From Rhodobacteraceae bacterium EL129 (GTDB lineage: Bacteria > Pseudomonadota > Alphaproteobacteria > Rhodobacterales > Rhodobacteraceae), in contig ONZJ01000002.1 of assembly GCA_900313005.1 (NCBI GenBank), positions 727,001 to 791,000 on the forward strand: a stretch of DNA of 64,000 nucleotides, read 5' to 3'. The first letter of the stretch is position 1. The number at the start of each line of letters is the position of its first letter. The notes below the pieces were generated by a model. That model was not told the DNA's origin. It searched no databases and saw nothing but the letters and a program-made list of their open reading frames with translations. Made by a program: the position numbers and the translations under genes. This document shows, piece after piece, positions 5,144 to 22,589 of this stretch.

Positions 5144-5313
5144 GAGGTCCTCTCCAGTGGGAACCATTGGATAAAACACCAGATCATCTGCCTAATAAAT
5201 AGCCAGTCTTAGACAAAAGATGTCGCAAACGTTTCATTCTGCGCATTGATCGCTTGACACGCCGGAAGCTTTTGACCTGATCAGGCTGTGCCGCTGACAA
5301 AAGGATGCCCGCC

Positions 5314-6570
5314 ATGTTGATTCAAGACAATCCTGCCTTGATTGATGAAATTCGCAATCGATTTGCGCATGTGGACAGCTGCCCATTTCAGGGGCCGCGT
5401 GTGTTTTTTGAAAATGCGGGTGGTGCCCTAACCCTGAAGTCGGTTGTTGAAACCTCTGGCGTTTATGCGGCCATTCCCGACAATCAGGGGCGCGATAATG
5501 TGGCCTCGCACGCGTTGGTGGATGTGATCAACAAAGCCAAAGCCGATCTTGCGGTGTTCATGAATGCACCATCGGGACAATTTTTTGTCGGTGAAAGCGG
5601 GACCGAGTTGTTGTTCCGGATGATCCGCACAGCCTGTGTGAATGCTCCTAGAGGCAGCAAGGTCATCGGGTCCTCGATCGAGCATCCCGCATCGCGGTCC
5701 GCGGCGATCCGGTGGGCGGGGATTGCGGGATTGGACTATGTAAATGTCCAACATGATGATGCGACAGGGTGTGTCACTGCGGCGGATTATGCGGCACAGA
5801 TGACGCCAGATGTGGCGGTCGCCACGATTTTGCATGCCTCGCCCGTGACGGGCATCGGTAACGATGTTGCGGCGATATCAGCTGCGATACGTGCTGTGTC
5901 CCCAGAGTGTTTCATCATTGTCGATGGCATTCAGCATGCGGCCCATGGGCAGATGGATTTGGCGGCGTATAATGTCGATGGCTATGCGATTTCGCCGTAC
6001 AAAGTGTTCTCGCGGCATGGGTATGGCATTGCGTGGATTTCGGACCGGTTGACGGATTTGCCGCATGATATGTTGTTGAATGCCCCGGCAACGGGATGGG
6101 AATTTGGCACACGTGATACGGGCTCTTATGCGACGATGTCGGATGTGATCGGGTATTTTGATTGGCTGGGCGGCGAAGTGTCGGACGAAACAGACCCTCG
6201 CGCCCGGATCGAAGCCGCTGGTCGCGCCATTCATGCCTATGAAACGCATCTGACCGACACGATGATCCGCGGGACCGGAAATTTGCCGGGGCTGCGCGAT
6301 ATGGATCATGTGACTATCCTGGCAGGCGAAGACAATCCGGGCCGTGAAGGTCTGGTGTCGGTTGTGATCAAGGGAATGGCCTCGCCAGATGTCGTCACTT
6401 TGCTGAACGAGCAGGGCATTCGGACCCACACGCGCAAGGCGGATCATTATAGCGGAAACGTGCTGGATCCTTTGGGCCTGAGCGATTGCATTCGCATTTC
6501 GCTGTGCCACTACAACACCGTCAGCGAAGTTTCTCAAACACTCGCGGTGATTCAGAGTCTGGCAGATTAA
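5314..6570 (+). CDS. PLP-dependent class V aminotransferase / cysteine desulfurase-like protein
   Basis: Fold-type I PLP enzyme of about 418 aa. The Schiff-base lysine is most likely in ISPYKVFSRHG (Lys230), with the upstream cofactor aspartate in IIVDGIQHAAHG. The sequence resembles the cysteine desulfurase-like branch (TIGR01976 type) rather than true IscS/SufS, and no SufS-like cysteine loop is evident, so the reaction is unknown. I prefer the ATG at 5314 because AAGGA lies 8 nt before it; an ATG at 5305 is in frame but has the same AAGG touching it. It is divergent from the GlxA-type regulator and shares a 170-bp promoter region with it, which suggests co-regulation with the sulfatase/Rieske operon. 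Confidence 0.85.
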   Translation: MLIQDNPALIDEIRNRFAHVDSCPFQGPRVFFENAGGALTLKSVVETSGVYAAIPDNQGRDNVASHALVDVINKAKADLAVFMNAPSGQFFVGESGTELLFRMIRTACVNAPRGSKVIGSSIEHPASRSAAIRWAGIAGLDYVNVQHDDATGCVTAADYAAQMTPDVAVATILHASPVTGIGNDVAAISAAIRAVSPECFIIVDGIQHAAHGQMDLAAYNVDGYAISPYKVFSRHGYGIAWISDRLTDLPHDMLLNAPATGWEFGTRDTGSYATMSDVIGYFDWLGGEVSDETDPRARIEAAGRAIHAYETHLTDTMIRGTGNLPGLRDMDHVTILAGEDNPGREGLVSVVIKGMASPDVVTLLNEQGIRTHTRKADHYSGNVLDPLGLSDCIRISLCHYNTVSEVSQTLAVIQSLAD

Positions 6571-6677
6571 TTTTTAGGCAACTGCAAATTGGTTTGCAAC
6601 CTATGCGCGAAAATCCGCCGCGTTTACGGAAATGGCAGTTTTTGAAAAATTTTCCCCTTGGCTCGAATCGAAAAAAC

Positions 6678-6719
6678 CCTACTAAATCAAGGCTACGGCA
6701 CGCTCAAACCTACTAAATC
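6678..6719 (+). repeat. Direct repeat pair in the leader of the giant repeat-protein gene
   Basis: CCTACTAAATC occurs twice, at 6678-6688 and 6709-6719, exactly 31 bp apart or about three helical turns. It lies 60-100 bp before the start of the giant gene, in an AT-rich stretch that is otherwise non-coding (6571-6781). It could be a pair of binding sites for a regulator. No regulator gene is adjacent. Confidence 0.55.
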
Positions 6720-6781
6720 TAGAGGGATACTGGAGGTAGGTTCTTACTCACGGGTGTGTGTTAATGAGTAGGGACAGAGAA

Positions 6782-9700
6782 ATGAGCGGAACGTGGCTGC
6801 ACACGGTTTTTGTTAAGTTATTAATTTTAATTTCATTTTTCCTGATTTCAACGACACCCGGACGCGCCACGACCTTTACCACGACCGTCCCGGGCACAGG
6901 CATTCAATTGCCGGCGGATTACCCTGAGGCAGGTGGCATTGCCTTCGTCATCGTGGGTGTGAATGGAAACATCTACTACCAGTTTTCAAATCCAACCGGT
7001 GCTTTTCGCGGGTTTCAGAATTCGGGCCAGCCAGCAGCTTTTCGCGGCAACCCTTTTACGATCAATGATCCGGTTCCTCTGAACTGTGGTTTCAGTGATT
7101 GTGCTGACTATTTCGGAGGTGCCATTTCGAACGTTCATGTGCGCTTTACGGCGTTTGACGGTGACACGCAGCCGGGTGGATTTGACGAAAACGATATCTC
7201 GCTATTGTTGAACGGGATCAACATTGGCAGTTGGTCCGGGCTGACAACCGAGGCCACCAACACCCCTGGGACAACCTCGTTTGGTTTTGGTACCGGGTTC
7301 GGCAACGGCACTTTTGATACAGGTTGGTTCAATTCGACCAACCCTGTGTTGTTCAACAACATCCTGACCACGGGTCAGATCACAACTCAGGTTTTTGATG
7401 ATGATCCCAATGACAACTATTGGGATTTTCGTCGTGGCCAGTCTCTCAACAATAATGACATTGTCACAGTGGCCCCCGGCTATCTGCTCGAAAAAACGGC
7501 AGATCCAACCACTTTTGGCGCGGTCGGGGAGACGATCGAATATACCTACATTGTGACCAACATCGGATCGGTGCCAATCCGGTCCTTGGCGGTGACGGAT
7601 GACAAGATCAGCAATATCACCTGCGACAAGACCGTGATCTTGGATTCGCCAACCCCCGCCAATATGGGCGGGGTCGCTGATTTTGCGACCTGCACGGGCG
7701 AATACGAAATCCAGCAAGAGGATTTTGACGCCGAGCAAGTGGTGAACTTGGCCCAGGCCACAGGCGTGCCAGACTTTGGCCAATTGGGCACTTTGACCGA
7801 TTCCGCCACCGTGACGGGCCCAGCAATTGCGCCCAGTATCTCGATCGTGAAGGACACGGTGCTTGGTGCCTTTGGGAATGCGGGCACGACGGTGCCCTAC
7901 ACATTCGTGGTCGAAAACACAGGCGATGCGACGTTGTTCAACGTGAGCGTCAGTGATCCGAACATTCCCGGTTTGGTGTGTGAAGCGGCTGAATTGGCCC
8001 CGGATGAAGAGCTGAACTGTTCGGCAGATTACACCGTTCTGCAATCTGATGTGGACGATTTCCTCAACGGCGGGACACAGCTGAGCAATACCGCCGAAGT
8101 GACATCACGAGACCCCAATAACGTCACGCGAACAGATGACAGCACAGTCAATCTGGATGGGCCAGATGCGACGCCAACATTCACGCTGGTGAAGACAGCG
8201 GTGCAGAGTGATTTCGATGCCGTCGACGACGTTTTGCAATTCAACATTGTCATCACCAACACTGGCAATGTGACCTTTCCCAACCCACCTGCGATTACGG
8301 ACACCTTGACGGGTGGGGCCAGTTGTCCGGCAGGCCCTGTTGCGCCGACCGCGTCGGTGACATGTACGGCCAGTTATACCGTCGATCAGGATGATCTGGA
8401 CGCAGGAGAGGTGGACAACCGCGCTGATGCGACCATCACCATTGATGGTGTCACCGAAACAGATGGTGACAACGCGATCGTGCCTGCCATTCGCACCGAA
8501 GGCATTACCATCGATAAGCGCCTCGCGCCGACGTCGCCGTCCAGCTTTGCAGATGAGAATATCTTGTTGAGCTACGAATATGTGGTGACCAACACAGGCA
8601 ATGTGCGGCTGGATTCCGTGACAGTGGAAGACGATAAGGTCACGGCGACCTGTACCCCTGACACCATCGACCCGGGTGACAGTGTTGTTTGTACATCAAC
8701 CGACTACCCGACGACGCAACCTGACGTCGACGCGGGCGGCGTGACGAACATCGCCAGTGCCACAGGCACGCCGCGCGGTGGTGCTGGCCCGATCACCTCG
8801 GACACTGATACGGTAACCGTGCCTGCCACGCAGACACCTGGTCTGGGTCTGGTCAAGGACGCGCCAACATTGACGGCTCTCGAATATCAAAGCGGAGAGA
8901 TCGTGACCTATACCTACACGGTCTCGAACACGGGTAACACGACGATCACCCAGCCGCTCAGCGTGACGGACGACAAAATCGGAACCTTCTCCTGTGGTAC
9001 GGTGCCTCTGGCCCCCGGTGCCGACACCAGCTGTACGGCGCAATATCAATTGCAACCAACGGACATCTTGGCTGGATCTGTCACCAACTCGGCCAGCGCA
9101 ACGGACGGCACCTCGGACAGCAACGAGGCAACCGCGACGATCTCGCCTGATCTGGATCCGGATATCAGTGTGACCAAAACAGCGGATCTGGCACAGGTCA
9201 GCTCGACCTCGGATGTGATCACCTACACGTTTGAGGTGCGCAATGCGGGCAATACGCAGATTTTGCTACCTGACCAGCCGATCACCGTGGATGATCCCCG
9301 TGTCGGCGTGGTAGATTGCTCTGCTCAACCCGGGACATTCAATCCAACAGACACGTTTGACTGTACGGCGACCACGACGCCCACGCTGGCCGAGATGAAC
9401 GCTGGCGAGGTGGTGAATACCGCGACGGCCAGCTTCCCCTTTACCTCGGGAGGCACAACAAACACCATTCGGTCGGCCCCTTCCACGGCCACAGTGCCGG
9501 TTGACCCGCAGCCGTCGATGGTTTTTGCCAAAAGCGGTCCGGCCTCGTTCAATGCGTTGAACCAAGAACTGAGCTATACGTTTACCGTCACCAACAACGG
9601 CAATGTCACCTTGTCTCGGGTCGATGTGACAGATCCGCTGATCCCGACGCTCAACTGTGTGATCACGGATCTCGAGCCGACCCAATCCGACAGCTGCACA

Positions 9701-12700
9701 GCCACCTATAACGTCACCCAACCCAACATGGATGACGAAGAGATCATCAACACGGCGACAGCTGTGGGGCAGCCGACCCAAGGTGGCACCATCACCGAAA
9801 CAAGCCAATCCACAGCCAACCTGCCTGCAGGCGTGGCTGATAAATCGGCAGTTGTGCAGAAAGATGCAGACACCAGCACATTTGCCGCTGTGAATGATGA
9901 AATCGAATACACGTTTACCGTCACCAACGACGGCAACCAGACCCTGACCAATCTTGAAGTCCGAGACAGCCTTGATACGGGCTATCTCTGCGTTATCCCC
10001 AGCCTTGCACCGGGTGTTGCGAACACGGATTGCACGTTCACCTATCAGGTGACGCAGGCCGATCTGGATGCGGGTCAAATCCTGAACACAGCCACTTTGT
10101 CCAGCCCAGAGATCACCACGGATACTGATTCAGAAACGGTGACAGGGCCTGCGCGCAATGCTTCGTTTGTCTTCGTGAAATCGACGACGGATACCTACGA
10201 TAGCGAAAATGACATTGTGAACTTTGATTTCAGCGTGACGAACAATGGCAACGTGACCCTGACCAACATTCTTATCACGGACCCCCTGTTCACACCGGCG
10301 CTGAACTGCACGATCCCCAGTCTGCTGCCTGGGGTGACGGACAACACAACCTGTTCGGGGGCCTACACCGTGTCTCAGAACGATGTGAACCAGGGCAGCT
10401 TTACCAACACGGCAAATATTAGCGCCGATGCACCCGCAGGGGTGACACCACCGCCGCCGGATTCCTCGACCGAAGTTGTTGATGGGCCTGTGTCCATGCC
10501 ATTGGTGCAAATCGTCAAAACACCGTCCACGGGCAGCTATGCCAATATATCGGACACGGTGAACTATACGTTCGTAGTGACCAACACTGGCAACGTTACC
10601 CTGACCAACCTGCGCGTAGAAGATCCTCAGCTATCGTTCGATTGTTTTCTCGACAATCTTGAGCCCGGCGACAACACCACCACCTGTTCCGGCGGAGCAC
10701 CAGCTTTGGGCGGTACACTGACAGTGCAGCAACCTCAGATTGACGCAGGCAGCTTTGCCAATATTGCGACGGTCACGGGCAATGCGCTTGTGGGCGGCAC
10801 TGCCGTTGAAGATGCGGACCGCGTTGTCGTGACGGGCCCGGCTCAGACCCCTTCGATTACACTCGCGAAGGTTGCTGATGATCTGACCCCTTACGACGAG
10901 GTGGGAGACGAGATTGATTACACCTATACGGTGACGAACACAGGCAACATCACGCTGACGGCTGACATCACGGTGACGGATGACCGCATTGCTAACGTCA
11001 CCTGTGATCCCATTGGGGCCGGAGTGCCGCCGTCGGGCACGCTGACCTGTCGTGGCACATATGTGGTGGATCAGGATGATCTGGATAATCAATTTGTCAC
11101 CAATACCGCCAGCGCCACGGTGATCCAACCGGTAATCCCGCAAAATCTGGGCGACCCGGCGTTTGTGACAGTCACCTCGCCAGATGTGATGGAAACTGTA
11201 AACGCTGACCAATTGCCTGCGTTGTTGTTGGATAAACGCATCAAAAGCACATCTGCCAGCAGCTACAGTCAAGTTGGCGACACGGTTGTGTTCGAATACT
11301 TCGTGACCAACACAGGGAACGTCACCACGACGGCCGACATCACGATCACGGACAATCGTATTCCTGGTGTATTGACCTGTGGCGCCGCTGGCGTGGCACC
11401 GGGCGGTACAGTGCTGTGCGAGCAAACATGGACAGCTGATCTGCCTGCGTTGAACGCAGGCGAAGTGACCAACACGGCCACCGCCTCAACGCAGTTTGAT
11501 GGCAATACGGTAGATTCAAATGACGACACGGCGACCGTCACCGCTGTACAGGAGCCCTCGCTTGCGATTGTGAAGACACTGGTGGGCAATACGCCACCCC
11601 CCCCTCTGCCTCCCGATAGTTTCGATGTAGGTGTGGTGCTGGACTACTCTTACCTGGTGCGGAACGACGGCAACGTCTCGATATCGGGTCCGTTCACCTT
11701 CAGTGATAGTCTCACGACCCCCTCTTGCGCGCCGGCAGCGCCGGCCACATTGGCGCCGAACTCGACCTTCACCTGTACTGGGCAATATACAATGGGCCCC
11801 AGTGATGTCGCCGTGGGCGTGGTGAACAACGTGGTCACGGTCTCGGGTACATTTGATGGCATGGCGATCACCTCGCCGTCGGACAATGCAACTTTTCCCG
11901 TGGCGAGCGATCCAGCGATCTCGATCACCAAAGTGGCTTTGAATGCGGGGGATACCTTTGATGACATTACGGATGTGATCACCTATCGCTATACTGTCAC
12001 GAATGATGGCAACGCCGGGCTGATCGAAGACATTTTCATCACCGATGACAAGATCGGACGATTCCTGTGTCGTGCGGGCGGTACGGTGCTGAACATTGGC
12101 GCGACGCATACCTGTGATGTGGATCAACCTTACACCCTGACCCAGCCCGATCTGGATGCAGGAGAAGGGATCAACGAAGCCATCGCAGACACGCTGTTTG
12201 CGGCCGGGACACCTGACGAACTGGTCGTGCAGTCAGGACCTGTCACCGAAACGGTCACGTTGGAAGAACTGCCAGGTCTGACAGTCGCCAAGGACGTTAC
12301 GACCGGGGATGATCCGGCCTCTGTGGATGACGATCTGACCTATACCATCACGGCGACCAACTCGGGCAATCAAACGCTGAGTGGGGTGACTTTGTCGGAT
12401 GAGATGTTGGGGGCGCTGAGCTGCACAGTGGGTGGCAATCCGGCTCCGGCCAACGTCATTTTGTTGCCGGGGGAGGCATTGACCTGCACAGGTATGTACA
12501 CGGTTTCGCAGGAAGACATAGATGACCAAACCCTGCCCAACACGGCCACCGCGCGGGGCTCAGACCCCATGGGGGCCACGGTCACGGAAACAGGAGTTGA
12601 CAATCACCCTCTGGAAGGCGCGTCTCCGGGCATCGAAGTGACAAAAGCAGTCTTTCCCGACCCCGGACCGAATATCGCGTTTGAGCTGGAAGGCCAGGAG

Positions 12701-15700
12701 ATCATGTTCCGCGTCACGGTGCGTAACTCGGGCAATATCACGCTGAACAATGTGGTTGTGACGGATGATCGCATACCGGGGGAAAGCTGTACAATTCCAA
12801 CACTCGCGCCCCTGCTCAGTGATAGCAGCTGCGAGTTCACCTATACCATTCTGCAGGCTGATATTGATGCACAAAACGGCACAGATCCGAATTTCTTCGG
12901 TGGCTTTATCAACGTCGCCCGCGCAACGGCGCTGCCGGCCAACCCCGGTGCCACGGAAATCGACGACGATGGCGAGATTTTTGTGCGGGGCCCAGACCAT
13001 GAGCCTGCGTTTGCTCTGACCAAAGAGGCAAATGTCGAAGAGGTCACAACGGCCGGTCAGACGATCACTTACACCTACCGCGTGGTGAACATCGGCAACA
13101 TCACCTTGTTTGATCAACCCTCGATCACTGATGACAAGATCGGGACTTTCGACTGCGGGACCGTACCGGTTGCAGGTCTACCGCCTCAGGCGTTTTTGAC
13201 CTGCACGCAGGATTATACAGTGCGGCAAACGGATGTGGATGCGGGCGAGATCGTCAATATCGCTTCGGTCAGCTCGGATGAAGTGCCATTTGATCCCAAC
13301 GACCCGCTGCGTGCCGAAGCGACAGAAACGGTGGACGCTCCGAGAACGCCTGGCATAACCCTGACCAAAACACCTTCGGTGCTGTTGGGCGTCGAGGCTG
13401 GGGACATGATCGACTACACCTATGATGTGGCCAACACCGGCAATGTAACACTGACTGACGTCACGGTTACAGACCAGCACACCAGCGCCTCTGGCACCAT
13501 CGCGCTGCCCGTCGCGGGCGATACGCAGATCACCGACGGTGGCTTGCCGAACGACAGCACCGATGCCGCAGAGAACGGCATCTGGGACAGTCTTGCGCCC
13601 GGTGATGTGGTGCGTTTCACCGCCAGCTACGAGGTACAGCAAGAGGACGTCGATCAAGGCATCACGATTGCCAACACGGCCACGGTTACGTCGCAAAGTC
13701 CCCCCGGAACAGAGGCCCCCAGCGATGAACAGGACGCCACGGTCAACGTGGTAACACCAGGCCCTGCGATGGTGGTTCTGAAGACGGCCAATGATGACGA
13801 CGTACAGGATCCTGCGCAAATCGGTGATGAAATCGTCTACACCATTACCGTGCGCAATATCGGTAACGTTACGCTCAGCACGCCTGTCCTGACGGACACG
13901 CTTGTCGATGCGGATGGAGAAGCGCTCACTCTGCCTGATCCTGTGTTGCAGGCGGGCGGTGATGCGAACACCAATGGCGACCTCGATGTCGGTGAAATCT
14001 GGACCTACACCACCACCTTTGTGCTGGACCAACAGGCGATTGACACCGGAGGTGTCTCCAATACAGCCAGCGCGACAGCCACGGATCCGTTCAACACATC
14101 CATCACTGATCCTATTGATGCGCCGGTTGTCACAGATTTGCCACGCGCGCCGTCGATAGCGGTGATCAAATCGGCCACGTTTGATGATGGCGGGGATGGT
14201 CAGGCGGATGTGGGGGACACCATCAACTATACCTACACGGTGACAAACACCGGCAATGTCTCGTTGTTTGATATCACCCTGGCGGAAACCACCTTTACCG
14301 GTGTGGGGGATGCCCCTGAGCCTGCGCTGCAATCCGGTGGAGCGGATTTGGGTGGCGATCCTGCCGTGCTGGACTTGTCTTTTGGGCAAAGCATGACATT
14401 CACCGCCAGCTACACTCTGCAACAAGATGACCTCGACGCCACGGGCGTCACTAACCAGGCCACCGCCAGAGGCGATGATCCTGAAGGAGACACAGTCACT
14501 GATCTGTCAGGCGGAGCGCTTGATGACGACACGCCGACCGTAACACCCTTCACGGCCGCGCCAGGATTGGAAGCGACCAAGACCGTGGTTGGCACCGGGG
14601 TGCAATCCCCCGCTCAGATTGACGATGTGGTCAACTACACGCTGACGATTGTGAACACCGGCAACGTGACGCTGGACATCAATGATGTGAACGGGATCGA
14701 CGACACGATGACCCGCGCAGATGGCTCGACAACCGAGCTTGATGCGCCATTTGCCCTGATCTTGGGCGATGCTGATGGGGACGAGCGCCTTGACGTGACC
14801 GAAACCTGGACATTGACGGCGGCCTACACGCTGACACAGGCCGATCTGAACGCTGGTGGTCTGGAAAACACCGTGACAGTCAATGCGACTGACCCCGAAG
14901 ATACACCCGTCATGGACCAATCGGATGACGGAGATGACTCTGACGGGAACACCGAGAACGATCCGACAGTGTTCGAATTTGAACGCGCACCTGAACTCAC
15001 TGTGATCAAATCCGTCAGCGCCTTCACGGGTGTGGCCCCCGGCGACACGGTGACCTTCACCATCAATGCCACTAACACCGGCAATGTCGACCTGACCAAT
15101 TTGTCCGTAACTGACGAGCTCAGCCGCGCAGATGCCACGGTGATCACAGGCGTCACACCTGTGCCTGTGTCTGTGCCTGACACATTGTCGCCGACCGAGG
15201 TGGCGACGTGGACTTTGACCCATACGCTGACCCAGGACGACATCAATGCGGGCGGGTTGCGCAATACGGCAACTGTTACCGCCAACCCACCGGATGGCAT
15301 TGACCCGATCGAGGATCAATCCGCCGATGATGACCCGACTGATGGCAATGATGAAGACGACCCGACCGAGTTTGATATCGTGCCGACACCTGGCCTCGAA
15401 GTGATCAAAACGCTTGATGCCATCGGTGCCAATGTGGGTGAAACGGCCGTGTTCACAATCGCGGCGCGCAACTCGGGGAACGTGACGCTGACGGATGTCG
15501 CAGTCGCGGACACACTGACGCGTTCGGATGATGCAAACACGCCGTTGACCCCTGACAGCATTGTGTTCAGCGGTGCGAATGGCACGCCTCCTTCGCCACA
15601 GGGGACCATTCAGGCGGGTGAAATTGCGACCTGGACAGTGACCTATACGCTGACGCAAGACGATATTGATGCGGGCGGGATTCAAAACACGGCAACCGTG

Positions 15701-17773
15701 ACGGGCCTTGACCCCACTGATGTCGAGATAAGCGATCTGTCGGACGATGATGGAGACGGCGACGGTGATCCGACGGTGGCTCCGATTGAACAAAACCCAT
15801 CGGTTGCTCTGACAAAATCAGCGTCAGATGTAAGCATCCTGTTCCCAACCGTTTATCAGGTCACGTTCACCCTTGCGTTGGAGAACGACGGTAACGTGAC
15901 ACAGACCGGTTTGAGCCTGGTGGACGATCTGGCGTCATTCCTGAGCCCGGCGATACTGTTGTCCGACACCTATCCTCTGCAAGTCACCGCAGATGGGTTT
16001 ACCGACGGAACGGCGAACCCGGCCTATGACGGCGCGGCGGTGACAGACACGCTGACAGGCAATCCGACCCTTGCCCCCGGCGAGACTGGGACCGTCACTG
16101 TGCTGCTGACTTACTCGACGGCGAGCGGACAGCCAGGGCTTGCGAATGTGGCCACGGTGACCTCGGACCAGCTGCCCGAAGCAACTCCTTCGAACGACGT
16201 CGTGGTCGCCTTGGCGGACAGCGATGATGATGGTGTGCCCGATACCCTGGAAAGCACCACCGAAGACCGTGACGGTGACGGCATTCCCGATGCGCTCGAC
16301 TATGATCCGACCGGTTACTTCTATTGTGAAGAAAACGGTGAAATCCTTTCGGGCGGCAGCGTAAGCGTGACCGGACCGGCGGGCACCCAGACGGGTGTTG
16401 GAACCTCGAACAACATCACCATCGTGCGGGACGGCTCTGCCGGCTATTTCCAGTTCTTCGTCACAGCTGCGGGCAGCTATTCCATTAATCTGACCTATCC
16501 CCCGGCAGGAGTGCCGTCGACGGATCGGCTGGATGGTGGGGTGCTGGATGTCACATCGCTTCTGCCGCAAAACCCGGCCTCATTGGGGTCAAGTGAGTTT
16601 GGCACCACAGGCGTGCTGGCGGATTTCACTGCACCTGCGAACCCATGGTTCACGACATTCGTGATCGAGGCCGGGGATCCGACCCTGATCAATGTGAACG
16701 TGCCGCTGACCAATTGCGCAGGTGCACCCAACATCATGGCGACCAAGTCGGCTGATCGTGACAGTGCGGTCTTTGGTGAGGCGGTGAATTATACGCTGAC
16801 GTTTACCAATAACACGTCACTTACCTACACCGGTGCTAATGTGATCGACCAATTGCCTGCGGGCCTTGCCTATACTCCGGGCTCTGCACAGGTTGACGGC
16901 GTGGCGACCGAGCCCACAGCCATCCCAAGAACCAGATTGACCTGGGCCGGGCTTACGATTGCCCCGGCGCAGACGATCACCGTGACCTATTCCGCGCGTG
17001 TGACCGGACAGGCCGACTTTGGCGAGCTGACCAACAGCACCTGGCTGACGGACAGTGGCGGCAATACGCTGTCGAATATCGCGACAGCCACCATCACGGT
17101 GGAGCCCGAGCATGTGTTTGATTGCTCGGACGTGATCGGCAAGGTCTTCGATGACCGCAACCGCAATGGCTATCAGGATGCGCCCGGTGGTCGGGTGACC
17201 GATGACGACCTCTTTGTCGACAAGATGGGAAAACTGCAGGGACCAAAGCCTGCCAAAGACGGCGAACCCGGTTTGCCAGGTGTGCGTTTGGCCACGGTGA
17301 ATGGCACATTAATTACCACGGATGAACATGGGCGTTTCCACGTACCCTGTGCCGAGTTGCCCAAGGCGATCGGGTCTAACTTTACCCTGAAGCTGGACAC
17401 ACGCACGTTGCCCTCGGGCTACCGTGTGACCACGGAAAACCCACGGGTGGTGCGTCTGACTGCAGGTAAAATGGCCAAGATGAACTTTGGTGCCGCCATC
17501 GGCAAAGTTGTGGATGTCGACCTGACCGACCGCGCCTTTGTGCCGGGTGAAGCCCAACCCAAGGCCGCTTTGGCCAAGGGGGTAGACGGGCTGTTGGAGC
17601 AGATCCGCTCGACCCCGTCTGTGCTGCGGCTGTCCTACATCCTGCAACAGGACGAGGACGCGGCGAATGCCCGTGCAAGGCTCCGCGCACTTGAGAAACT
17701 GATCCGCCAGAAATGGCGAGGCAAGGGACGCTACAAGCTCGATATCGAGCGATCAGTGAAGCGGGTGCAGTGA
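6782..17773 (+). CDS. Giant secreted DUF11-repeat surface protein
   Basis: Predicted exported protein of 3663 aa. Start at the ATG at 6782 (MSGTWLHTVFVKLL) has AGGGA 7 nt upstream; earlier GTG 6758 and ATG 6764 lack a clear site. Residues about 1-30 form a signal peptide. Residues 30-236 are a beta-rich domain I do not recognise. From residue 237 there are 24 DUF11-like Ig repeats of about 121 aa with the pattern K...V(T)YTYTVTNTGN. Repeats 1-17 each carry one cysteine pair; repeats 18-24 have none and several end in Asp-rich linkers. Near residue 3145 is a thrombospondin type 3-like motif (DSDDDGVPD, DRDGDGIPD), near 3319 a 25th DUF11 unit, near 3453 an SdrD_B-like block (GKVFDDRNRNGYQD), then a C-terminal domain with SVLRLSYIL. 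The barrel gene starts 1 bp after its stop. Function in adhesion or surface-layer formation is inference. Confidence 0.88.
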   Translation: MSGTWLHTVFVKLLILISFFLISTTPGRATTFTTTVPGTGIQLPADYPEAGGIAFVIVGVNGNIYYQFSNPTGAFRGFQNSGQPAAFRGNPFTINDPVPLNCGFSDCADYFGGAISNVHVRFTAFDGDTQPGGFDENDISLLLNGINIGSWSGLTTEATNTPGTTSFGFGTGFGNGTFDTGWFNSTNPVLFNNILTTGQITTQVFDDDPNDNYWDFRRGQSLNNNDIVTVAPGYLLEKTADPTTFGAVGETIEYTYIVTNIGSVPIRSLAVTDDKISNITCDKTVILDSPTPANMGGVADFATCTGEYEIQQEDFDAEQVVNLAQATGVPDFGQLGTLTDSATVTGPAIAPSISIVKDTVLGAFGNAGTTVPYTFVVENTGDATLFNVSVSDPNIPGLVCEAAELAPDEELNCSADYTVLQSDVDDFLNGGTQLSNTAEVTSRDPNNVTRTDDSTVNLDGPDATPTFTLVKTAVQSDFDAVDDVLQFNIVITNTGNVTFPNPPAITDTLTGGASCPAGPVAPTASVTCTASYTVDQDDLDAGEVDNRADATITIDGVTETDGDNAIVPAIRTEGITIDKRLAPTSPSSFADENILLSYEYVVTNTGNVRLDSVTVEDDKVTATCTPDTIDPGDSVVCTSTDYPTTQPDVDAGGVTNIASATGTPRGGAGPITSDTDTVTVPATQTPGLGLVKDAPTLTALEYQSGEIVTYTYTVSNTGNTTITQPLSVTDDKIGTFSCGTVPLAPGADTSCTAQYQLQPTDILAGSVTNSASATDGTSDSNEATATISPDLDPDISVTKTADLAQVSSTSDVITYTFEVRNAGNTQILLPDQPITVDDPRVGVVDCSAQPGTFNPTDTFDCTATTTPTLAEMNAGEVVNTATASFPFTSGGTTNTIRSAPSTATVPVDPQPSMVFAKSGPASFNALNQELSYTFTVTNNGNVTLSRVDVTDPLIPTLNCVITDLEPTQSDSCTATYNVTQPNMDDEEIINTATAVGQPTQGGTITETSQSTANLPAGVADKSAVVQKDADTSTFAAVNDEIEYTFTVTNDGNQTLTNLEVRDSLDTGYLCVIPSLAPGVANTDCTFTYQVTQADLDAGQILNTATLSSPEITTDTDSETVTGPARNASFVFVKSTTDTYDSENDIVNFDFSVTNNGNVTLTNILITDPLFTPALNCTIPSLLPGVTDNTTCSGAYTVSQNDVNQGSFTNTANISADAPAGVTPPPPDSSTEVVDGPVSMPLVQIVKTPSTGSYANISDTVNYTFVVTNTGNVTLTNLRVEDPQLSFDCFLDNLEPGDNTTTCSGGAPALGGTLTVQQPQIDAGSFANIATVTGNALVGGTAVEDADRVVVTGPAQTPSITLAKVADDLTPYDEVGDEIDYTYTVTNTGNITLTADITVTDDRIANVTCDPIGAGVPPSGTLTCRGTYVVDQDDLDNQFVTNTASATVIQPVIPQNLGDPAFVTVTSPDVMETVNADQLPALLLDKRIKSTSASSYSQVGDTVVFEYFVTNTGNVTTTADITITDNRIPGVLTCGAAGVAPGGTVLCEQTWTADLPALNAGEVTNTATASTQFDGNTVDSNDDTATVTAVQEPSLAIVKTLVGNTPPPPLPPDSFDVGVVLDYSYLVRNDGNVSISGPFTFSDSLTTPSCAPAAPATLAPNSTFTCTGQYTMGPSDVAVGVVNNVVTVSGTFDGMAITSPSDNATFPVASDPAISITKVALNAGDTFDDITDVITYRYTVTNDGNAGLIEDIFITDDKIGRFLCRAGGTVLNIGATHTCDVDQPYTLTQPDLDAGEGINEAIADTLFAAGTPDELVVQSGPVTETVTLEELPGLTVAKDVTTGDDPASVDDDLTYTITATNSGNQTLSGVTLSDEMLGALSCTVGGNPAPANVILLPGEALTCTGMYTVSQEDIDDQTLPNTATARGSDPMGATVTETGVDNHPLEGASPGIEVTKAVFPDPGPNIAFELEGQEIMFRVTVRNSGNITLNNVVVTDDRIPGESCTIPTLAPLLSDSSCEFTYTILQADIDAQNGTDPNFFGGFINVARATALPANPGATEIDDDGEIFVRGPDHEPAFALTKEANVEEVTTAGQTITYTYRVVNIGNITLFDQPSITDDKIGTFDCGTVPVAGLPPQAFLTCTQDYTVRQTDVDAGEIVNIASVSSDEVPFDPNDPLRAEATETVDAPRTPGITLTKTPSVLLGVEAGDMIDYTYDVANTGNVTLTDVTVTDQHTSASGTIALPVAGDTQITDGGLPNDSTDAAENGIWDSLAPGDVVRFTASYEVQQEDVDQGITIANTATVTSQSPPGTEAPSDEQDATVNVVTPGPAMVVLKTANDDDVQDPAQIGDEIVYTITVRNIGNVTLSTPVLTDTLVDADGEALTLPDPVLQAGGDANTNGDLDVGEIWTYTTTFVLDQQAIDTGGVSNTASATATDPFNTSITDPIDAPVVTDLPRAPSIAVIKSATFDDGGDGQADVGDTINYTYTVTNTGNVSLFDITLAETTFTGVGDAPEPALQSGGADLGGDPAVLDLSFGQSMTFTASYTLQQDDLDATGVTNQATARGDDPEGDTVTDLSGGALDDDTPTVTPFTAAPGLEATKTVVGTGVQSPAQIDDVVNYTLTIVNTGNVTLDINDVNGIDDTMTRADGSTTELDAPFALILGDADGDERLDVTETWTLTAAYTLTQADLNAGGLENTVTVNATDPEDTPVMDQSDDGDDSDGNTENDPTVFEFERAPELTVIKSVSAFTGVAPGDTVTFTINATNTGNVDLTNLSVTDELSRADATVITGVTPVPVSVPDTLSPTEVATWTLTHTLTQDDINAGGLRNTATVTANPPDGIDPIEDQSADDDPTDGNDEDDPTEFDIVPTPGLEVIKTLDAIGANVGETAVFTIAARNSGNVTLTDVAVADTLTRSDDANTPLTPDSIVFSGANGTPPSPQGTIQAGEIATWTVTYTLTQDDIDAGGIQNTATVTGLDPTDVEISDLSDDDGDGDGDPTVAPIEQNPSVALTKSASDVSILFPTVYQVTFTLALENDGNVTQTGLSLVDDLASFLSPAILLSDTYPLQVTADGFTDGTANPAYDGAAVTDTLTGNPTLAPGETGTVTVLLTYSTASGQPGLANVATVTSDQLPEATPSNDVVVALADSDDDGVPDTLESTTEDRDGDGIPDALDYDPTGYFYCEENGEILSGGSVSVTGPAGTQTGVGTSNNITIVRDGSAGYFQFFVTAAGSYSINLTYPPAGVPSTDRLDGGVLDVTSLLPQNPASLGSSEFGTTGVLADFTAPANPWFTTFVIEAGDPTLINVNVPLTNCAGAPNIMATKSADRDSAVFGEAVNYTLTFTNNTSLTYTGANVIDQLPAGLAYTPGSAQVDGVATEPTAIPRTRLTWAGLTIAPAQTITVTYSARVTGQADFGELTNSTWLTDSGGNTLSNIATATITVEPEHVFDCSDVIGKVFDDRNRNGYQDAPGGRVTDDDLFVDKMGKLQGPKPAKDGEPGLPGVRLATVNGTLITTDEHGRFHVPCAELPKAIGSNFTLKLDTRTLPSGYRVTTENPRVVRLTAGKMAKMNFGAAIGKVVDVDLTDRAFVPGEAQPKAALAKGVDGLLEQIRSTPSVLRLSYILQQDEDAANARARLRALEKLIRQKWRGKGRYKLDIERSVKRVQ

Positions 17774-17774
17774 G

Positions 17775-20700
17775 ATGAGTAAGATGATGTTGTTCAACAA
17801 ACCCACCCGTTTTCTGACCGTCTGTTCCGCTTTGGCACTGGGAACGAGCCCCAGTCTGGTCTCTGCTCAGGACTGCTCGCTTTATGATGGGGTGTTGCCT
17901 GCAGGATGCGAACAGGCCAATGCAGACGTGGTGGTCAGCACCCCTGTCGGAGCCAACACGGAAGCGGATGAAGCCAACGCCGATCTGGGGGATGCCGGCT
18001 TTACGATCACGATTGACGGTGATGCGGTGATCGAAGACAAACGTGTGGAACACATTGCGCGCAAGGCAGACATCGCCTTGTCGCAGGCCGATCTGCGCGT
18101 ACAGTTTGATGGATTGGGCGCCAAGCCCCGGCTGGACCTGGATATGCTGGGCCCGGTTGAGCGGCCGGGTGCAGGCGATACGATCTCGCTGCAAAGCCGG
18201 ATGAATTATCCCTCATATGTCTCACGCGGAGAATTGCGGGTCATTGACCGTGGCGCGCGGGGTGGGCCACGTACGGTCATGACCGTGCCCATTGACCCGA
18301 ATGGTCAAGCCTCGATCACTGTGCCAGATGGCGAGGATGTCGTGGTGGTGCACCGCGTCTACGACAGTCAGGGGCGGTTTGACGAAACGGCACCGCTGTC
18401 CTTGATGCGCCCAGATGACCGCCCGCTGAGCGATGAGGTTGAAGAAGGCACGAACACTGCCGTCAAACGCAGCATCCCGGTGAATGGCGGGGCAGTTACG
18501 GTTTCGGGCACTGGCGTGCGCCCTGGCGCACAGGTCACCACGTTGGGTGAGACGGTACAACCAGACCCGTCTGGCGCATTTGTGCTGCAGAGAATTTTAC
18601 CGGCCGGAGATCACTCGGTTGAAGTGGCCTTGGACGGAGCGGGTGAGGCCACGCAAATTGAGCGTGATATCACCATCCCGAAATCTGACTGGTTCTACGT
18701 GGCCACGGCCGATTTGACCTTTGGTCGACGGTTTCTTGATAACCAGCCAGACCGCGATTTTACCGAAGGACGTCTGGCGTTTTACACCAAGGGTAAAACC
18801 GCTTCGGGGTGGACGATCACGGCGTCTGCGGACACAGGCGAGCAGGATATCAAGGACCTGTTCCGGGACTTTGACCGCAAAGATCCCTACAACGTCCTGA
18901 ACCGGCTTGATCCGGATGACGCCTATCCGGTCTACGGCGACGACAGCACAATCGAACAGGACGCGCCAACCGATGGCAAATTCTACGTGAAGGCTGAAAA
19001 GAACGGCAGCCACCTGATGTGGGGCAACTATGTCGCGCAGGTTCGGGGTGGCACTTATTTGCGGAACGAGCGTACGCTCTATGGTGCGCAGGGGTACTAT
19101 GTTTCGCCCCAGACAACCTCGCGGGGACAACCGCGCGCGACCATCACCGCCTATGCCGCGCAGCCGGATCAATTGCCGGGACGCGATATTTTCCGTGGCA
19201 CCGGCGGATCTGCCTATTTCCTGCAGCGTCAGGATGTGGCGATTGGCAGCGAAACCATCTCGATCGAATTGCGTGACCGCGATACAGGCCGCGTCGTGGA
19301 AACCCGGCCTTTGTCGCCCGGGCGCGACTATGATATCAACTATCTGCAAGGTCTGGTGACGCTTTCTGCGCCGCTGACGGGACAAACGGGCAGCGGCACC
19401 TTGGTGACCCAGCCCGGTGGCGCCTATGATGTGCGGCTGGTGGTGCAATACGAATATACCCCCACCACAGGTGACGTAGATGGGTATACCTACGGGGGCC
19501 GCGCCGAGACCTGGGTGACAGACAATGTCCGCCTCGGGTTTACGGGCATGGTCGAACAGACCGACATTGCCGATCAGGAAGCCTGGGGCGCTGATATCCG
19601 GTGGGAGCTGTCAGAAGGCACCTTCGTCGAGGCCGAGTATGCCGAAAGCGATGGTCCCGGCTTTGGCTCGTCCTTTTCGGATGATGGCGGGTTGATCATC
19701 ACCAACACCCCCGGGGCAGGCGGCACAGGTCACGCGCTGAACCTGCGTGGTCAGGCGGAACTGACCGAATTGGGACTGGGTGTCGACGGCACGATTGCGG
19801 GATATTTTGAGGAACGCACTGCGGGTTTCTCGTCGTTGGATTATCAGACACTGGTGGATGAAACCCTGTGGGGGGTTGCGGCAGATGTGCAGGCCTCGGA
19901 CCGGGTGCGTGTGCGGCTGTATTATGATGATTTTGAGGATGACAACGGCAAGTTTGTCCGCGAAGGCGGGGCCGAGCTGTACTACGATGTATCGGACCGT
20001 GTGACGCTTGGCTTCGGAGTCGAGCATCAGGACCGTAACGACAGCACCGATCCGCTGGATACCGGCAAGCGCACGGATGTGGCGATACGCGTGGACGTTG
20101 AACAATCCGAGGCCCTGTCGTGGTTCGTCTTTGGTCAGACCACGGTTGAGCGTTCAGGTGGGTTGCGCAACAACGACCGGCTGGGTGCGGGGCTGAAACT
20201 GGCCTTTTCCGAACACTGGACGGTTGAGGCAGAGTATTCCGACGGCACATTGGGGCCGGGTGGATTGCTGATGTTCAGCTATTCGCGTGACAATGAAAAC
20301 TCTGGCTATGCCGGATACCGACTAGAGCCGGGCCGAGACTTTCAGGGCGTGACCCTCAATGGTCGTGACAAAGGACAGTTTGTCGCTGGTGGGCGCCGCA
20401 AGGTGAACGACGAAGTGAGCGTCTATGCCGAGAACACCTATGACATGTTTGGCGCGTATAACTCCTTGGGCTCGACCTACGGTGTGGAATACGCCCGGTC
20501 AGAATACCTCACCTATTCAGGGTCTTACGAGCTGGCGCAGATTGACGACCCTATCATTGGAGACTTTGAACGCCACGCCTTGTCCCTGGGCATGCGCTAT
20601 CAGGACGAGGCCGGGCTAAGCGGTAGCCTGCGGTTTGAGTACCGTCAGGATCGTGGCACCCAAGGAGGAACCATTCGCGATGGGGACAGCTATCATCTGG

Positions 20701-21311
20701 TGGCGGCGGCGAACTACAAAATTGACGAAGAGCGCCGCCTGCTGTTCAGTTTTGACGGGGCAACAACCTCGAACAAAACTGCATCCTTCCAGGGTGGCGA
20801 CTACGCTGAGTTGACCTTTGGCTACGCCTATCGTCCGATTGAGAACGACAAGCTGAACTTCCTGCTAAAATACACGTATCTCTATGACATGTATGGGCAA
20901 ATCATAGATGGGACGGATACACCCGGCCCTGTGCAGGAAAGCCATATTTTCACGGCGGATGCGATCTATGACTTGAACAAACATTGGTCATTGGGTGGTA
21001 AGGTTGGTGTGCGCCTCTCTGAAAGTGCACCCAACCCCACAACTGCGAAACAGCGTAATGATGCTGTGCTCTTCGTGGCCAATGTGCGGTATCACCTGAC
21101 CCACGAATGGGACATGCTGTTTGAGGCGCGCCATCTGGAGGCAGATCAGGCCAAGATCAGTGAAACCAGCTTCCTTGGCGCGGTGTACCGCCATGTCGGA
21201 AACAACTTCAAAGTCGGCGTTGGATACAATTTCGGCAGCTTCTCGGATGATCTGAGCGATCTGACCTATGATGACAAAGGTGCCTTTATCAACCTGATTG
21301 CAAAGTTCTGA
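17775..21311 (+). CDS. Outer-membrane beta-barrel partner of the DUF11 giant
   Basis: 1178-aa exported protein. The signal peptide ends near SLVSAQ. Residues about 60-330 contain soluble Ig-like segments (ADLRVQFDGLGAKP, VYDSQGRFDETAPLSL, VQRILPAGDHSVE-type block). From residue about 310 to the end, alternating aromatic/polar strands fit a large outer-membrane barrel (WFYVATADLTFG, AFYTKGKTASGWTITASADT), ending with the C-terminal phenylalanine (INLIAKF) typical of BAM substrates. Blocks such as DPDDAYPVYGDDST and FRGTGGSAYFLQRQD belong to a family that I recognise next to DUF11 giants in many proteobacteria, often labelled TonB-receptor-like or OmpA/MotB-like; I know of no established function. 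No TonB box or plug is seen. It probably exports, anchors or displays the giant protein. Confidence 0.85.
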   Translation: MSKMMLFNKPTRFLTVCSALALGTSPSLVSAQDCSLYDGVLPAGCEQANADVVVSTPVGANTEADEANADLGDAGFTITIDGDAVIEDKRVEHIARKADIALSQADLRVQFDGLGAKPRLDLDMLGPVERPGAGDTISLQSRMNYPSYVSRGELRVIDRGARGGPRTVMTVPIDPNGQASITVPDGEDVVVVHRVYDSQGRFDETAPLSLMRPDDRPLSDEVEEGTNTAVKRSIPVNGGAVTVSGTGVRPGAQVTTLGETVQPDPSGAFVLQRILPAGDHSVEVALDGAGEATQIERDITIPKSDWFYVATADLTFGRRFLDNQPDRDFTEGRLAFYTKGKTASGWTITASADTGEQDIKDLFRDFDRKDPYNVLNRLDPDDAYPVYGDDSTIEQDAPTDGKFYVKAEKNGSHLMWGNYVAQVRGGTYLRNERTLYGAQGYYVSPQTTSRGQPRATITAYAAQPDQLPGRDIFRGTGGSAYFLQRQDVAIGSETISIELRDRDTGRVVETRPLSPGRDYDINYLQGLVTLSAPLTGQTGSGTLVTQPGGAYDVRLVVQYEYTPTTGDVDGYTYGGRAETWVTDNVRLGFTGMVEQTDIADQEAWGADIRWELSEGTFVEAEYAESDGPGFGSSFSDDGGLIITNTPGAGGTGHALNLRGQAELTELGLGVDGTIAGYFEERTAGFSSLDYQTLVDETLWGVAADVQASDRVRVRLYYDDFEDDNGKFVREGGAELYYDVSDRVTLGFGVEHQDRNDSTDPLDTGKRTDVAIRVDVEQSEALSWFVFGQTTVERSGGLRNNDRLGAGLKLAFSEHWTVEAEYSDGTLGPGGLLMFSYSRDNENSGYAGYRLEPGRDFQGVTLNGRDKGQFVAGGRRKVNDEVSVYAENTYDMFGAYNSLGSTYGVEYARSEYLTYSGSYELAQIDDPIIGDFERHALSLGMRYQDEAGLSGSLRFEYRQDRGTQGGTIRDGDSYHLVAAANYKIDEERRLLFSFDGATTSNKTASFQGGDYAELTFGYAYRPIENDKLNFLLKYTYLYDMYGQIIDGTDTPGPVQESHIFTADAIYDLNKHWSLGGKVGVRLSESAPNPTTAKQRNDAVLFVANVRYHLTHEWDMLFEARHLEADQAKISETSFLGAVYRHVGNNFKVGVGYNFGSFSDDLSDLTYDDKGAFINLIAKF

Positions 21312-21319
21312 CTGCGCAT

Positions 21320-22009
21320 ATGGGGCAGGGGGCACTCATATCACGCAGATTGGCCCTGGCTGGTCTTGCGTCCCTTGCTGCATCACCCGGTTCCGCGTTT
21401 GAATTGTCGCTACATGATCGTGCCAAGTTCAAAAGCTTTGGCGACGATGATTGGTTTTTTAACGATCCGTACGAGCGGTCGCGCCCCGGCGCAGTGCGCT
21501 TGCCCTACGAAGCCTGGCAGCTGAAGCAAAACCGCTCGCAAGCAGGGCAGCTGCTTGATCTTATTGCCTTTGCCGAGGCTGGCGCCAAACAATACGATGC
21601 CGTGCACCATTCTGCCAAGCGTCGTCCACCAGGGCGGCCGACACAAATCACCATCGCGCAGATCTTCGCCTGGACCAAAGCCACGCCTGGCCAGCATCAT
21701 GCCATCGGGCGGTACCAGTTCATCCCATCTACCTTGGTGGCGCTGGTGCGGCGCTCGGGGTTGAAAACCAGCGTCCGGTTTTCGCCCAAGGTGCAGGACG
21801 AGTTGGCGATGATCCTGCTGCGCGATGCGGGCTATGACAAGTTTCGCAAGGGCAAGCTGTCAAGGAAGAAGTTCATGCGCAATCTGGCGAAAATCTGGGC
21901 GGGGCTTCCTCTGGCCAATGGCCGGTCGTATTATCAAGGTTATGCCACGAACCGTGCGACGATCTCTCGGGCGTTCTATGAAACTCAGTTCAACAAGATC
22001 TTCGCCTGA
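21320..22009 (+). CDS. Secreted lambda-R-like lysozyme / lytic transglycosylase (GH104-like)
   Basis: 229-aa exported peptidoglycan-cleaving enzyme, by similarity in pattern to the phage lambda R endolysin. Seen are LIAFAEAG with candidate catalytic Glu86, a following YDAVHH, IGRYQFIPSTL, FSPKVQDELA and IWAGLPLANGRSYYQGY, in the same order as in lambda R. The N-terminus (ISRRLALAGLASLAASPGSA) is a signal peptide with an arginine pair that may be Tat-type. The ATG at 21320 is 8 bp after the barrel stop, so this gene is probably in the same operon; its ribosome site is weak, which suggests coupling. An exported wall hydrolase here could open peptidoglycan for passage or placement of the giant protein. 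Phage origin is possible, but no other phage gene is near. Confidence 0.8.
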   Translation: MGQGALISRRLALAGLASLAASPGSAFELSLHDRAKFKSFGDDDWFFNDPYERSRPGAVRLPYEAWQLKQNRSQAGQLLDLIAFAEAGAKQYDAVHHSAKRRPPGRPTQITIAQIFAWTKATPGQHHAIGRYQFIPSTLVALVRRSGLKTSVRFSPKVQDELAMILLRDAGYDKFRKGKLSRKKFMRNLAKIWAGLPLANGRSYYQGYATNRATISRAFYETQFNKIFA

Positions 22010-22055
22010 TGGGGCTGAAAACCACGAGGACCACTGCGCGTAAGGAGTTTCTGCA

Positions 22056-22463
22056 ATGACGTTTTGTTTTGGGAGATTTGCCGTGATTGGCGCGATCGTG
22101 CTCGGAACTTCGGTTCACGCGCAATCCGAGTATGAAGCATCGCTGTGCGAAGCGGCCAAAAACAACCGGGTGGTCGAGCTGGATTACGACAAAGACGCCA
22201 GCAAGGGATGCTTGCCTCGTCTGGTGGATGTGCATCAGGTCGCGATTGGCAACAACGGCAATTTGTATATGCACGGCTGGCAGCATCGCGGATGTACCAA
22301 GGGGCGGGACTACGCCTCGGAGCGGATATTCAGATTTGACAAGATCAAGTCAGTGGCGTTGATCGAAGGTGAATTTGACGACAAATCCCAAGCCATCAAG
22401 GCAGAAGGCTGGGACGGCTGCATCGGGACCAATTGCTTTATCCGCGAAAACATTTGTGAGTGA
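22056..22463 (+). CDS. Small secreted WYL-like protein
   Basis: 135-aa protein with a signal peptide ending near VHAQ (residue 23). Residues 30-105 (EAAKNNRVVELDYD, PRLVDVHQVAI, NLYMHGWQH, ERIFRFDKIKSVAL) follow the order of conserved features in WYL domains, which bind nucleic-acid or nucleotide ligands inside the cell in known cases. Here the domain would be outside the cytoplasm. Six cysteines (31, 52, 80, 122, 127, 134) in the mature part suggest disulfides. AAGGAG lies about 10 nt before the ATG. It follows the lysozyme-like gene by 46 bp and may be the last gene of that operon. WYL assignment is by eye and needs a profile search. Confidence 0.7.
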   Translation: MTFCFGRFAVIGAIVLGTSVHAQSEYEASLCEAAKNNRVVELDYDKDASKGCLPRLVDVHQVAIGNNGNLYMHGWQHRGCTKGRDYASERIFRFDKIKSVALIEGEFDDKSQAIKAEGWDGCIGTNCFIRENICE

Positions 22464-22499
22464 CGAGGGTGGCGTCGGATGTGCTGTGGTCTTGTAAAA

Positions 22500-22576
22500 T
22501 GGCGATCCCGGAAGGACTCGAACCCTCAGCCTGCTGATTAGAAGTCAGCTGCTCTATCCAGTTGAGCTACGGGACC
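22500..22576 (-). tRNA. tRNA-Arg (TCT anticodon)
   Basis: A 77-nt cloverleaf can be drawn on the minus strand. The acceptor stem GGTCCCG pairs with CGGGATC (one G-T pair), the D arm is AGCTCAACTGGATAGAGC, the anticodon stem-loop is CTGACTTCTAATCAG with anticodon TCT, and the T arm is AGGGTTCGAGTCCTT. The CCA end is encoded at 22500-22502. Stands alone between the secreted WYL-like gene and truA. Confidence 0.95.
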
Positions 22577-22589
22577 GCTGCGCCCAGCT

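Follow-up and report, generated by a model that had tools for sequence, protein, structure and literature searches.

In the marine Rhodobacteraceae bacterium EL129, four genes follow one another on the + strand of a 64,000-nucleotide stretch (the window) with gaps of 1, 8 and 46 bp. They encode a giant repeat protein (P0001), an outer-membrane barrel protein (P0002), a lysozyme of the GH104 type and a small WYL-like protein (P0004). On balance and with moderate confidence, this block can be regarded as a mobile surface-fibre module in which a reinforced giant is accompanied by a dedicated barrel acting as its exporter or holder, by an accessory lysozyme and by a WYL-like gene carried as cargo. 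The giant and the barrel are a widespread and well supported alphaproteobacterial pair, and the novel point is the barrel: it belongs to an unnamed family outside the known export families tried and, according to its predicted model, may be wider than the single-chain barrels of the literature consulted. A preliminary description, made from the sequence of the window, had noticed the four same-strand genes with their spacings and export signals. The same arrangement was found in the open reading frame (ORF) calls, and a hydrophobic export-type leader, as judged by eye, is present at the start of each of the four proteins.

Conservation of the giant/barrel pair

No relative was found when named genomes were scanned with the single barrel protein, whereas the alignment-based scan did reveal some: at least 562 relatives were obtained with the barrel profile and 80 loci, belonging by their titles to Rhodobacterales and Hyphomicrobiales, were returned. 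An ORF ends beside the barrel gene in 76 of these 80 loci and carries the C-terminal region of the giant in 73. Among the 76 ORFs, 37 had served to build the giant-end profile and 36 of the other 39 match it. The commonest spacing between the two genes, counted from the first possible start codon, is a 4-bp overlap. The C-terminus of the giant was also found upstream of the barrel gene in all 18 neighbourhoods fetched within the family (18 of the 37 barrel match rows). These counts bear out the recurrence of the pair announced in the preliminary description.

The class-wide search yielded a natural fusion of the two proteins, an open frame of 4545 aa which starts at base 19 of its contig and is perhaps cut. 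In this protein, a DUF11 and SdrD-B-like part is followed by a short Gly/Ala-rich linker and then by the barrel, which begins at about the position of residue 305. The matches of the giant and barrel profiles are separated by about 45 residues, and there is no room for the C-terminal domain of the giant or for the N-terminal domains of the barrel protein. Because both modules are omitted once the chains are fused, the simplest reading is that they would be the docking parts of the split version.

A second module was observed at three loci (L072, L093 and L101), where proteins of about 170-225 aa and of 880 aa accompany a fused giant-barrel protein (1907-2032 aa) and a lysozyme. The 880-aa protein has a NEW3-domain annotation in one record, and a response-regulator-like gene lies near by in two of the three loci. 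Interrupted relatives of the barrel were also seen, one split over two open frames (L264, G299) and one with two matched parts in one frame (L263, G589), for which decay, insertion or an assembly error are possible.

The giant protein

An alternative GTG start codon at 6758 would extend the giant to 3671 aa. The repeats that the preliminary description had seen along its 3663 residues were recovered by family searches: the whole protein reaches 1375 bits with DUF7507 (cut-off 27) and 257 bits with DUF11 (cut-off 24.6), and 25 DUF7507 and 18 DUF11 stretches, partly overlapping, were detected at E 1 or better. The same description knew of no defined function for such proteins, a statement which is outdated for the repeats: the main text of a 2025 survey renames DUF11/DUF7507 as CLIPPER/CLIPPER_2 and presents them as isopeptide-bond stalk domains of fibrillar adhesins (PMC12617251). 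In the 25 stalk repeats of the giant, the isopeptide residues are conserved for Lys (25/25), Asn (25/25) and Asp (24/25, one Glu instead), and a Cys pair is present in 17. Moreover, the last stalk repeat matches PDB 9ifr in a fold search. With its tandem DUF11/DUF7507 domains, long chain, leader and Lys-Asp/Glu-Asn triads, the giant resembles the CLIPPER/CLIPPER_2 adhesins and is a candidate fibrillar adhesin, presumably exposed at the cell surface. Its stalk is probably reinforced covalently, as the triads suggest, provided that the bonds form.

At the other ends of the chain, the non-repeat N-terminal region has no Pfam family at E 1 or better and gave a blast match in 6 of the 18 fetched barrel neighbourhoods, several of which stop within the giant. 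The C-terminal beta-alpha-beta-alpha-beta domain is found at the end of split giants. Its order of strands and helices in the AlphaFold model resembles that of an OmpA-type C-terminal domain, and Pfam OmpA did not match in four giant ends, among which the end domain was not searched alone.

The barrel protein

As proposed in the preliminary description, the second gene encodes an outer-membrane barrel: AlphaFold gives a barrel model and the chain ends in KF. The small inserted beta region occupies a position which we take, from usual usher anatomy, to be like that of the usher plug. Over the respective cut-offs, no Pfam or NCBIfam family was assigned to the protein, and no Pfam receptor, plug, POTRA or usher family matches P0002 at E 1 or better. 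Its relatives carry the public labels TonB-dependent receptor or hypothetical protein. The barrel represents an unnamed family and did not pass the tests applied for known export families. According to the model, it has at least 34 strands and probably 38-40. In the literature consulted, single-chain barrels of up to 36 strands are reported; the present one may be wider. The amphipathic alternation of the predicted strands has a median of 3.92, above the null median of 2.48. The TM of the model to SprA entries is 0.16 or less; SprA is not among the 50 matches listed in the fold search, an absence which is not counted as evidence.

The lysozyme gene

The lambda-R-like pattern reported earlier for the third gene was found again by two approaches. 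The protein matches the PHROG 90 endolysin family (E 1.2e-19), and its Glu86, invariant in 7 rows, aligns with Glu19 of phage lambda R, which we take to be the catalytic residue, at an overall identity of 27%. Two relatives are annotated as GH104 in public records. No Pfam or NCBIfam family was found over cut-off, and in a PDB search the lambda lysozyme was obtained at E 0.29 with a profile of 15 lysozymes, no better than the 0.16 of the single protein. A phage lysis cassette was considered and rejected, as no holin or spanin gene is present among the four genes of the block and all 112 matches in the phage collection are below 60% identity (27.6-36.9% for the 20 listed). Identity to cellular and plasmid copies reaches 50-60%.

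The linkage of this gene to the pair was examined in 198 genomes of the family, 84 of the genus, 385 of the class and the 80 named loci. In the family sample, the lysozyme is present in 46 genomes, the barrel in 31 and both in ten. For four lysozymes, where 0.0157 are expected, the distance to a barrel gene or a fused protein is at most 2 kb; the 2-kb limit was picked by us, and this Poisson figure ignores common descent whereas the tree count below does not. These cases are the window and three genomes (G006, G067 and G149) in which the enzyme stands beside the fused type (3 of the 40 fetched lysozyme neighbourhoods, out of 54 match rows), with an opposite-strand gene in between in G149. In the genus, the barrel is found in 4 of 84 genomes and is directly followed on the same strand by the lysozyme in three, at 8 bp in the window, 10 bp in G244 and 133 bp in G211; the G244 locus lies on plasmid pTHAF9_b of Roseovarius sp. 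THAF9. Sulfitobacter aestuariivivens (L237) provides a fourth example of the same arrangement. In a quick barrel tree with one support measure, the four linked barrels occupy three separate supported places, which corresponds to at least three changes. In the lysozyme tree (71 rows), the barrel-linked copies form one weakly supported group (78/46), and a supported branch (95/83) separates 53 rows, among which are the three lysozymes adjoining a fused protein and every one of the 32 ribosomal-region copies. An N-terminal motif, recognized by eye, is common to the linked lysozymes and to conjugation-linked copies.

These results support a linkage of the lysozyme to the giant/barrel genes beyond chance, as an optional and not universal partner with putative enzyme activity, and the gene has apparently been added to such pairs on several occasions. 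Of the place given to it in the preliminary description, the recurrent association is supported, with at least three changes in the tree plus the fused type, and a core role is not. An obligate part was rejected, the lysozyme being present in 1 of the 80 named loci, 71 of which include 1.2 kb or more of downstream sequence, and in none of the 18 fetched family barrel neighbourhoods. In the class-wide scan, where the barrel and the lysozyme were found in 12 and 4 of 385 genomes, only the genome of the window has both. In addition, the long fused-type frame is present in 7 family genomes, 3 with an adjoining lysozyme and 4 without any lysozyme match, and one long-branch conjugation-linked copy falls inside the barrel-linked lysozyme group. 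From such data it could be argued that the pair is as described above and that the lysozyme is a hitchhiking conjugation gene of plasmids with no role in fibre export, the more so as its relatives are found in plasmid conjugation loci and two linked copies are plasmid-borne. We consider this explanation unlikely: in three congeneric loci the gene comes immediately after the barrel in the same orientation, it is linked in three separate barrel branches and in the fused type, two carriers retain a second copy elsewhere, and the frame of the window copy is uninterrupted and retains the catalytic Glu.

Relatives of the enzyme were also observed in two other contexts. The plasmid search gave 36 records with a lysozyme match, of which 11 stretches were inspected. 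In eight of the nine that show no giant, the gene is preceded by those of a coupling protein and of mobF, one or two other genes intervening (L242-L245 and L247-L250); these conjugation-linked GH104 genes, borne by conjugative or related alphaproteobacterial plasmids, are mostly annotated as hypothetical protein. This context fits a family of dedicated wall cutters for envelope-crossing machines. In many Rhodobacterales (L074, L075, L078-L083, L089, L091, L092, L095-L097, L099 and L102, and in the genus for example L157 and L158), a relative lies among the S10-spc ribosomal-protein genes, going by gene names read from the sequence; rplP and the gene of a conserved protein of about 206-245 aa are frequent neighbours, and 32 of the 71 tree rows belong to this ribosomal-region class.

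The WYL-like gene

The WYL-like pattern seen earlier in the fourth gene is in agreement with a Pfam WYL score of 25.7 bits (cut-off 21.8); no NCBIfam match was obtained. The usual WYL proteins are DNA-binding transcription regulators. P0004 does not have this architecture: in its 135 aa, WYL is the only domain to score over a cut-off, and the chain starts with an export-type leader. It contains several cysteines and lacks a DNA-binding part, unlike the usual regulators. Of the 198 genomes of the family, 3 carry the gene, as do 2 of the 84 of the genus; both counts include the window, and the plasmid search gave no match.

According to the preliminary description, the small protein would modify or sense the giant, all four genes being one dedicated surface-assembly system. 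The single strand, short spacings, export-type leaders and single insertion are compatible with this view. No link could be found, however: P0004 is absent from all 80 named loci and all 18 family neighbourhoods, and its relatives in G055, G146 and G198, which are 71-75% identical, have no barrel or lysozyme near them in the stretches inspected, which measure 19 kb in two of these genomes and 3.4 kb in the third. Its gene is also the last of the four, after the 46-bp gap, and has a lower G+C content, 0.532 compared with 0.572-0.578. The WYL-like gene was rejected as a part of the system; it is a probable cargo or bystander, and a four-gene system including it is very improbable.

Insertion of the block at a tRNA-Arg gene

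A tRNA-Arg gene, a feature absent from the preliminary description, directly follows the block (Table 1). Among the seven congeneric sites fetched, two (L278 and L279) are empty sites in which a homologue of the gene at 5305-6570 directly adjoins the tRNA-Arg; this left neighbour is 83% identical between the window and both congeners. The other five have different left neighbours. Since the blastn matches of the flanks with the empty-site congeners stop at position 6536 of the window and restart at 22498-22499, a segment of about 15.96 kb, with these four genes and no others, was gained or lost at the tRNA-Arg gene. The G+C content of the block (0.570) is close to that of its flanks (0.577 and 0.586). 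A repeat-bounded element was rejected, the longest stretch common to the ends (6561-6800 and 22401-22620) being 8 bp at most, and no integrase is found among the four genes. The linked locus of G211 and that of the THAF9 plasmid have neighbours other than those seen in the window. Promoter and terminator patterns were no more numerous than in shuffled sequences, a scan which is silent on transcript structure.

Table 1. Positions in the window of the block, its four genes and their proposed parts.
Feature	Positions	Strand	Basis or remark
Inserted block, about 15.96 kb, exactly four genes	6537..22497	.	At 3' end of tRNA-Arg gene
Giant secreted protein, candidate fibrillar adhesin	6782..17773	+	3663 aa from ATG 6782
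Giant N-terminal non-repeat region, possible tip	6872..7480	+	Residues 39-241 of P0001
Stalk, 24 tandem CLIPPER/CLIPPER_2-type repeats	7481..16187	+	Lys at residues 246 to 3020
25th stalk repeat	16733-17095	+	Lys 3330
Giant C-terminal beta-alpha-beta-alpha-beta domain, proposed docking module	17504..17764	+	AlphaFold block, pLDDT 90-98
Outer-membrane barrel protein, 1178 aa, partner of the giant	17775..21311	+	AlphaFold barrel model; C-terminal KF
N-terminal helix and beta-rich domains of the barrel protein, proposed periplasmic docking part	18039..18677	+	Residues 89-301, AlphaFold
Barrel proper, about 38-40 predicted strands	18687..21308	+	Residues 305-1178; 34 strands after residue 551
Small inserted beta region after about six strands	19173..19366	+	Residues 467-530
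GH104-type (lambda-R-like) exported lysozyme/lytic transglycosylase, 229 aa	21320..22009	+	Catalytic core from about 21533
Small exported Cys-containing WYL-domain protein, 135 aa, probably bystander	22056..22463	+	Pfam WYL
tRNA-Arg (TCT), insertion landmark	22500..22576	-	Directly after block

Proposed mechanism

In the mechanism that we propose, the giant would pass the inner membrane through its leader peptide, and each of the 25 Ig-like domains of its stalk would be locked via Lys-Asn isopeptide bonding, with a probable additional disulfide in 17. Its C-terminal domain would remain in the periplasm and dock on the N-terminal domains of the neighbouring barrel. The fibre would then exit via the barrel and be held by its docked end; given the predicted width of the barrel, the domains of the fibre would probably pass in the folded state. 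The GH104 accessory, recruited several times from a gene family also serving conjugation machines, would make room for assembly of the complex by local cutting of the wall, and the WYL-like gene would be carried as cargo. The computed results behind this proposal are the repeats with their triads, the conservation of the pair, the architecture of the fusion, the linkage of the lysozyme and the insertion; bond formation, docking, passage of folded domains, surface exposure and wall cutting are inferred. More tentatively, the giant and the single-chain pore of about 38-40 strands could constitute an undescribed secretion route of Pseudomonadota for folded and locked adhesin domains, with the C-terminal domain of the giant docked on the N-terminal domains of the barrel protein and a wall cutter added repeatedly.

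It could also be that the barrel is a mere anchor or receptor of ordinary width and that the giant is exported unfolded, as a type V-like hairpin, or by another system. Several relatives are indeed labelled TonB-dependent receptor, the best partial fold matches of the barrel are ushers and smaller porins, and the isopeptide bonds could arise after export. This alternative appears somewhat unlikely in view of the natural fusions which unite giant and barrel in one chain, the at least 34 long strands predicted and the failure of the receptor, plug, POTRA and usher families in P0002; moreover, the Cys pairs of the repeats would tend to fold in the periplasm before export.

Several observations weigh against the mechanism of folded export through a wide, docked barrel, in addition to the lysozyme counts given above. 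The strand count comes from one AlphaFold model (46 sequences, pLDDT 78.9, pTM 0.72), no more than 16 of its 40 strands lie above the 95% null for amphipathic alternation, and among the 50 matches listed by Foldseek no solved barrel covers the model (model-normalised TM 0.20 or less). The docking parts are deduced from one fusion, and in three other proteins, of 1907-2032 aa, the giant-like and barrel-like parts are colinear with extra domains between them. As to the stalk, integrins equal the score of 9IFR in the list of fold matches of the giant repeat, and one count of the repeats used a model built from those of the window itself.

Comparison with known systems

As in type V secretion, either of the two-partner (Vb) or of the autotransporter (Va) kind, a large passenger is associated with an outer-membrane barrel in two genes or in a fused one. 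Type V barrels have 12-16 strands. In contrast, no POTRA was found here at E 1 or better and at least 34 strands are predicted, against the POTRA domains and 16 strands of a type Vb partner. The barrel of the chaperone-usher proteins FimD and PapC has 24 strands; here more are predicted, no usher family matches, and no chaperone is encoded among the four genes. The barrel also departs from TonB-dependent receptors, as it has no plug or receptor match in Pfam or NCBIfam and its predicted strand count is not 22. The lysozyme shares with GH104/lambda R the alignment of the catalytic Glu and the core motifs. Unlike lambda R, it is of the exported cellular/plasmid type, with the N-terminal motif of conjugation-linked copies and no holin or spanin neighbours in the block.

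By its predicted size class, the barrel may be close to SprA/Sov, the type IX translocon, which has 36 strands and is wide enough for folded cargo according to the text consulted (PMC7463736). It differs from it by the lack of a SprA family match (E 1 or better) and of any other type IX gene among the four; the type IX secretion system is reported to be specific to another phylum. No paper on the barrel family or on its pairing with DUF11 giants was present among the literature matches listed.

The closest counterpart of the giant is the Gram-negative CLIPPER adhesin of Acinetobacter silvestris (B9T28_05395, PDB 9IFR), which has a DUF11/DUF7507 stalk with Lys-Asp-Asn triads, a leader and a very long chain (PMC12617251). 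Isopeptide-locked stalks are known mainly from Gram-positive bacteria, and the main text of the 2025 survey mentions one earlier solved case outside them besides 9IFR (PMC12617251). Neither an export partner of the adhesin nor the way in which such fibres cross the outer membrane is described in the text consulted, and the term "outer membrane" has 0 occurrences in the main text (PMC12617251). In the present case, 73 of the 80 named loci have a barrel gene right after the giant. The pair thus provides a defined and widespread partner gene for the crossing of the outer membrane, together with a barrel of possible record size, a natural fusion indicating which parts may dock, and a lysozyme accessory that recurs.
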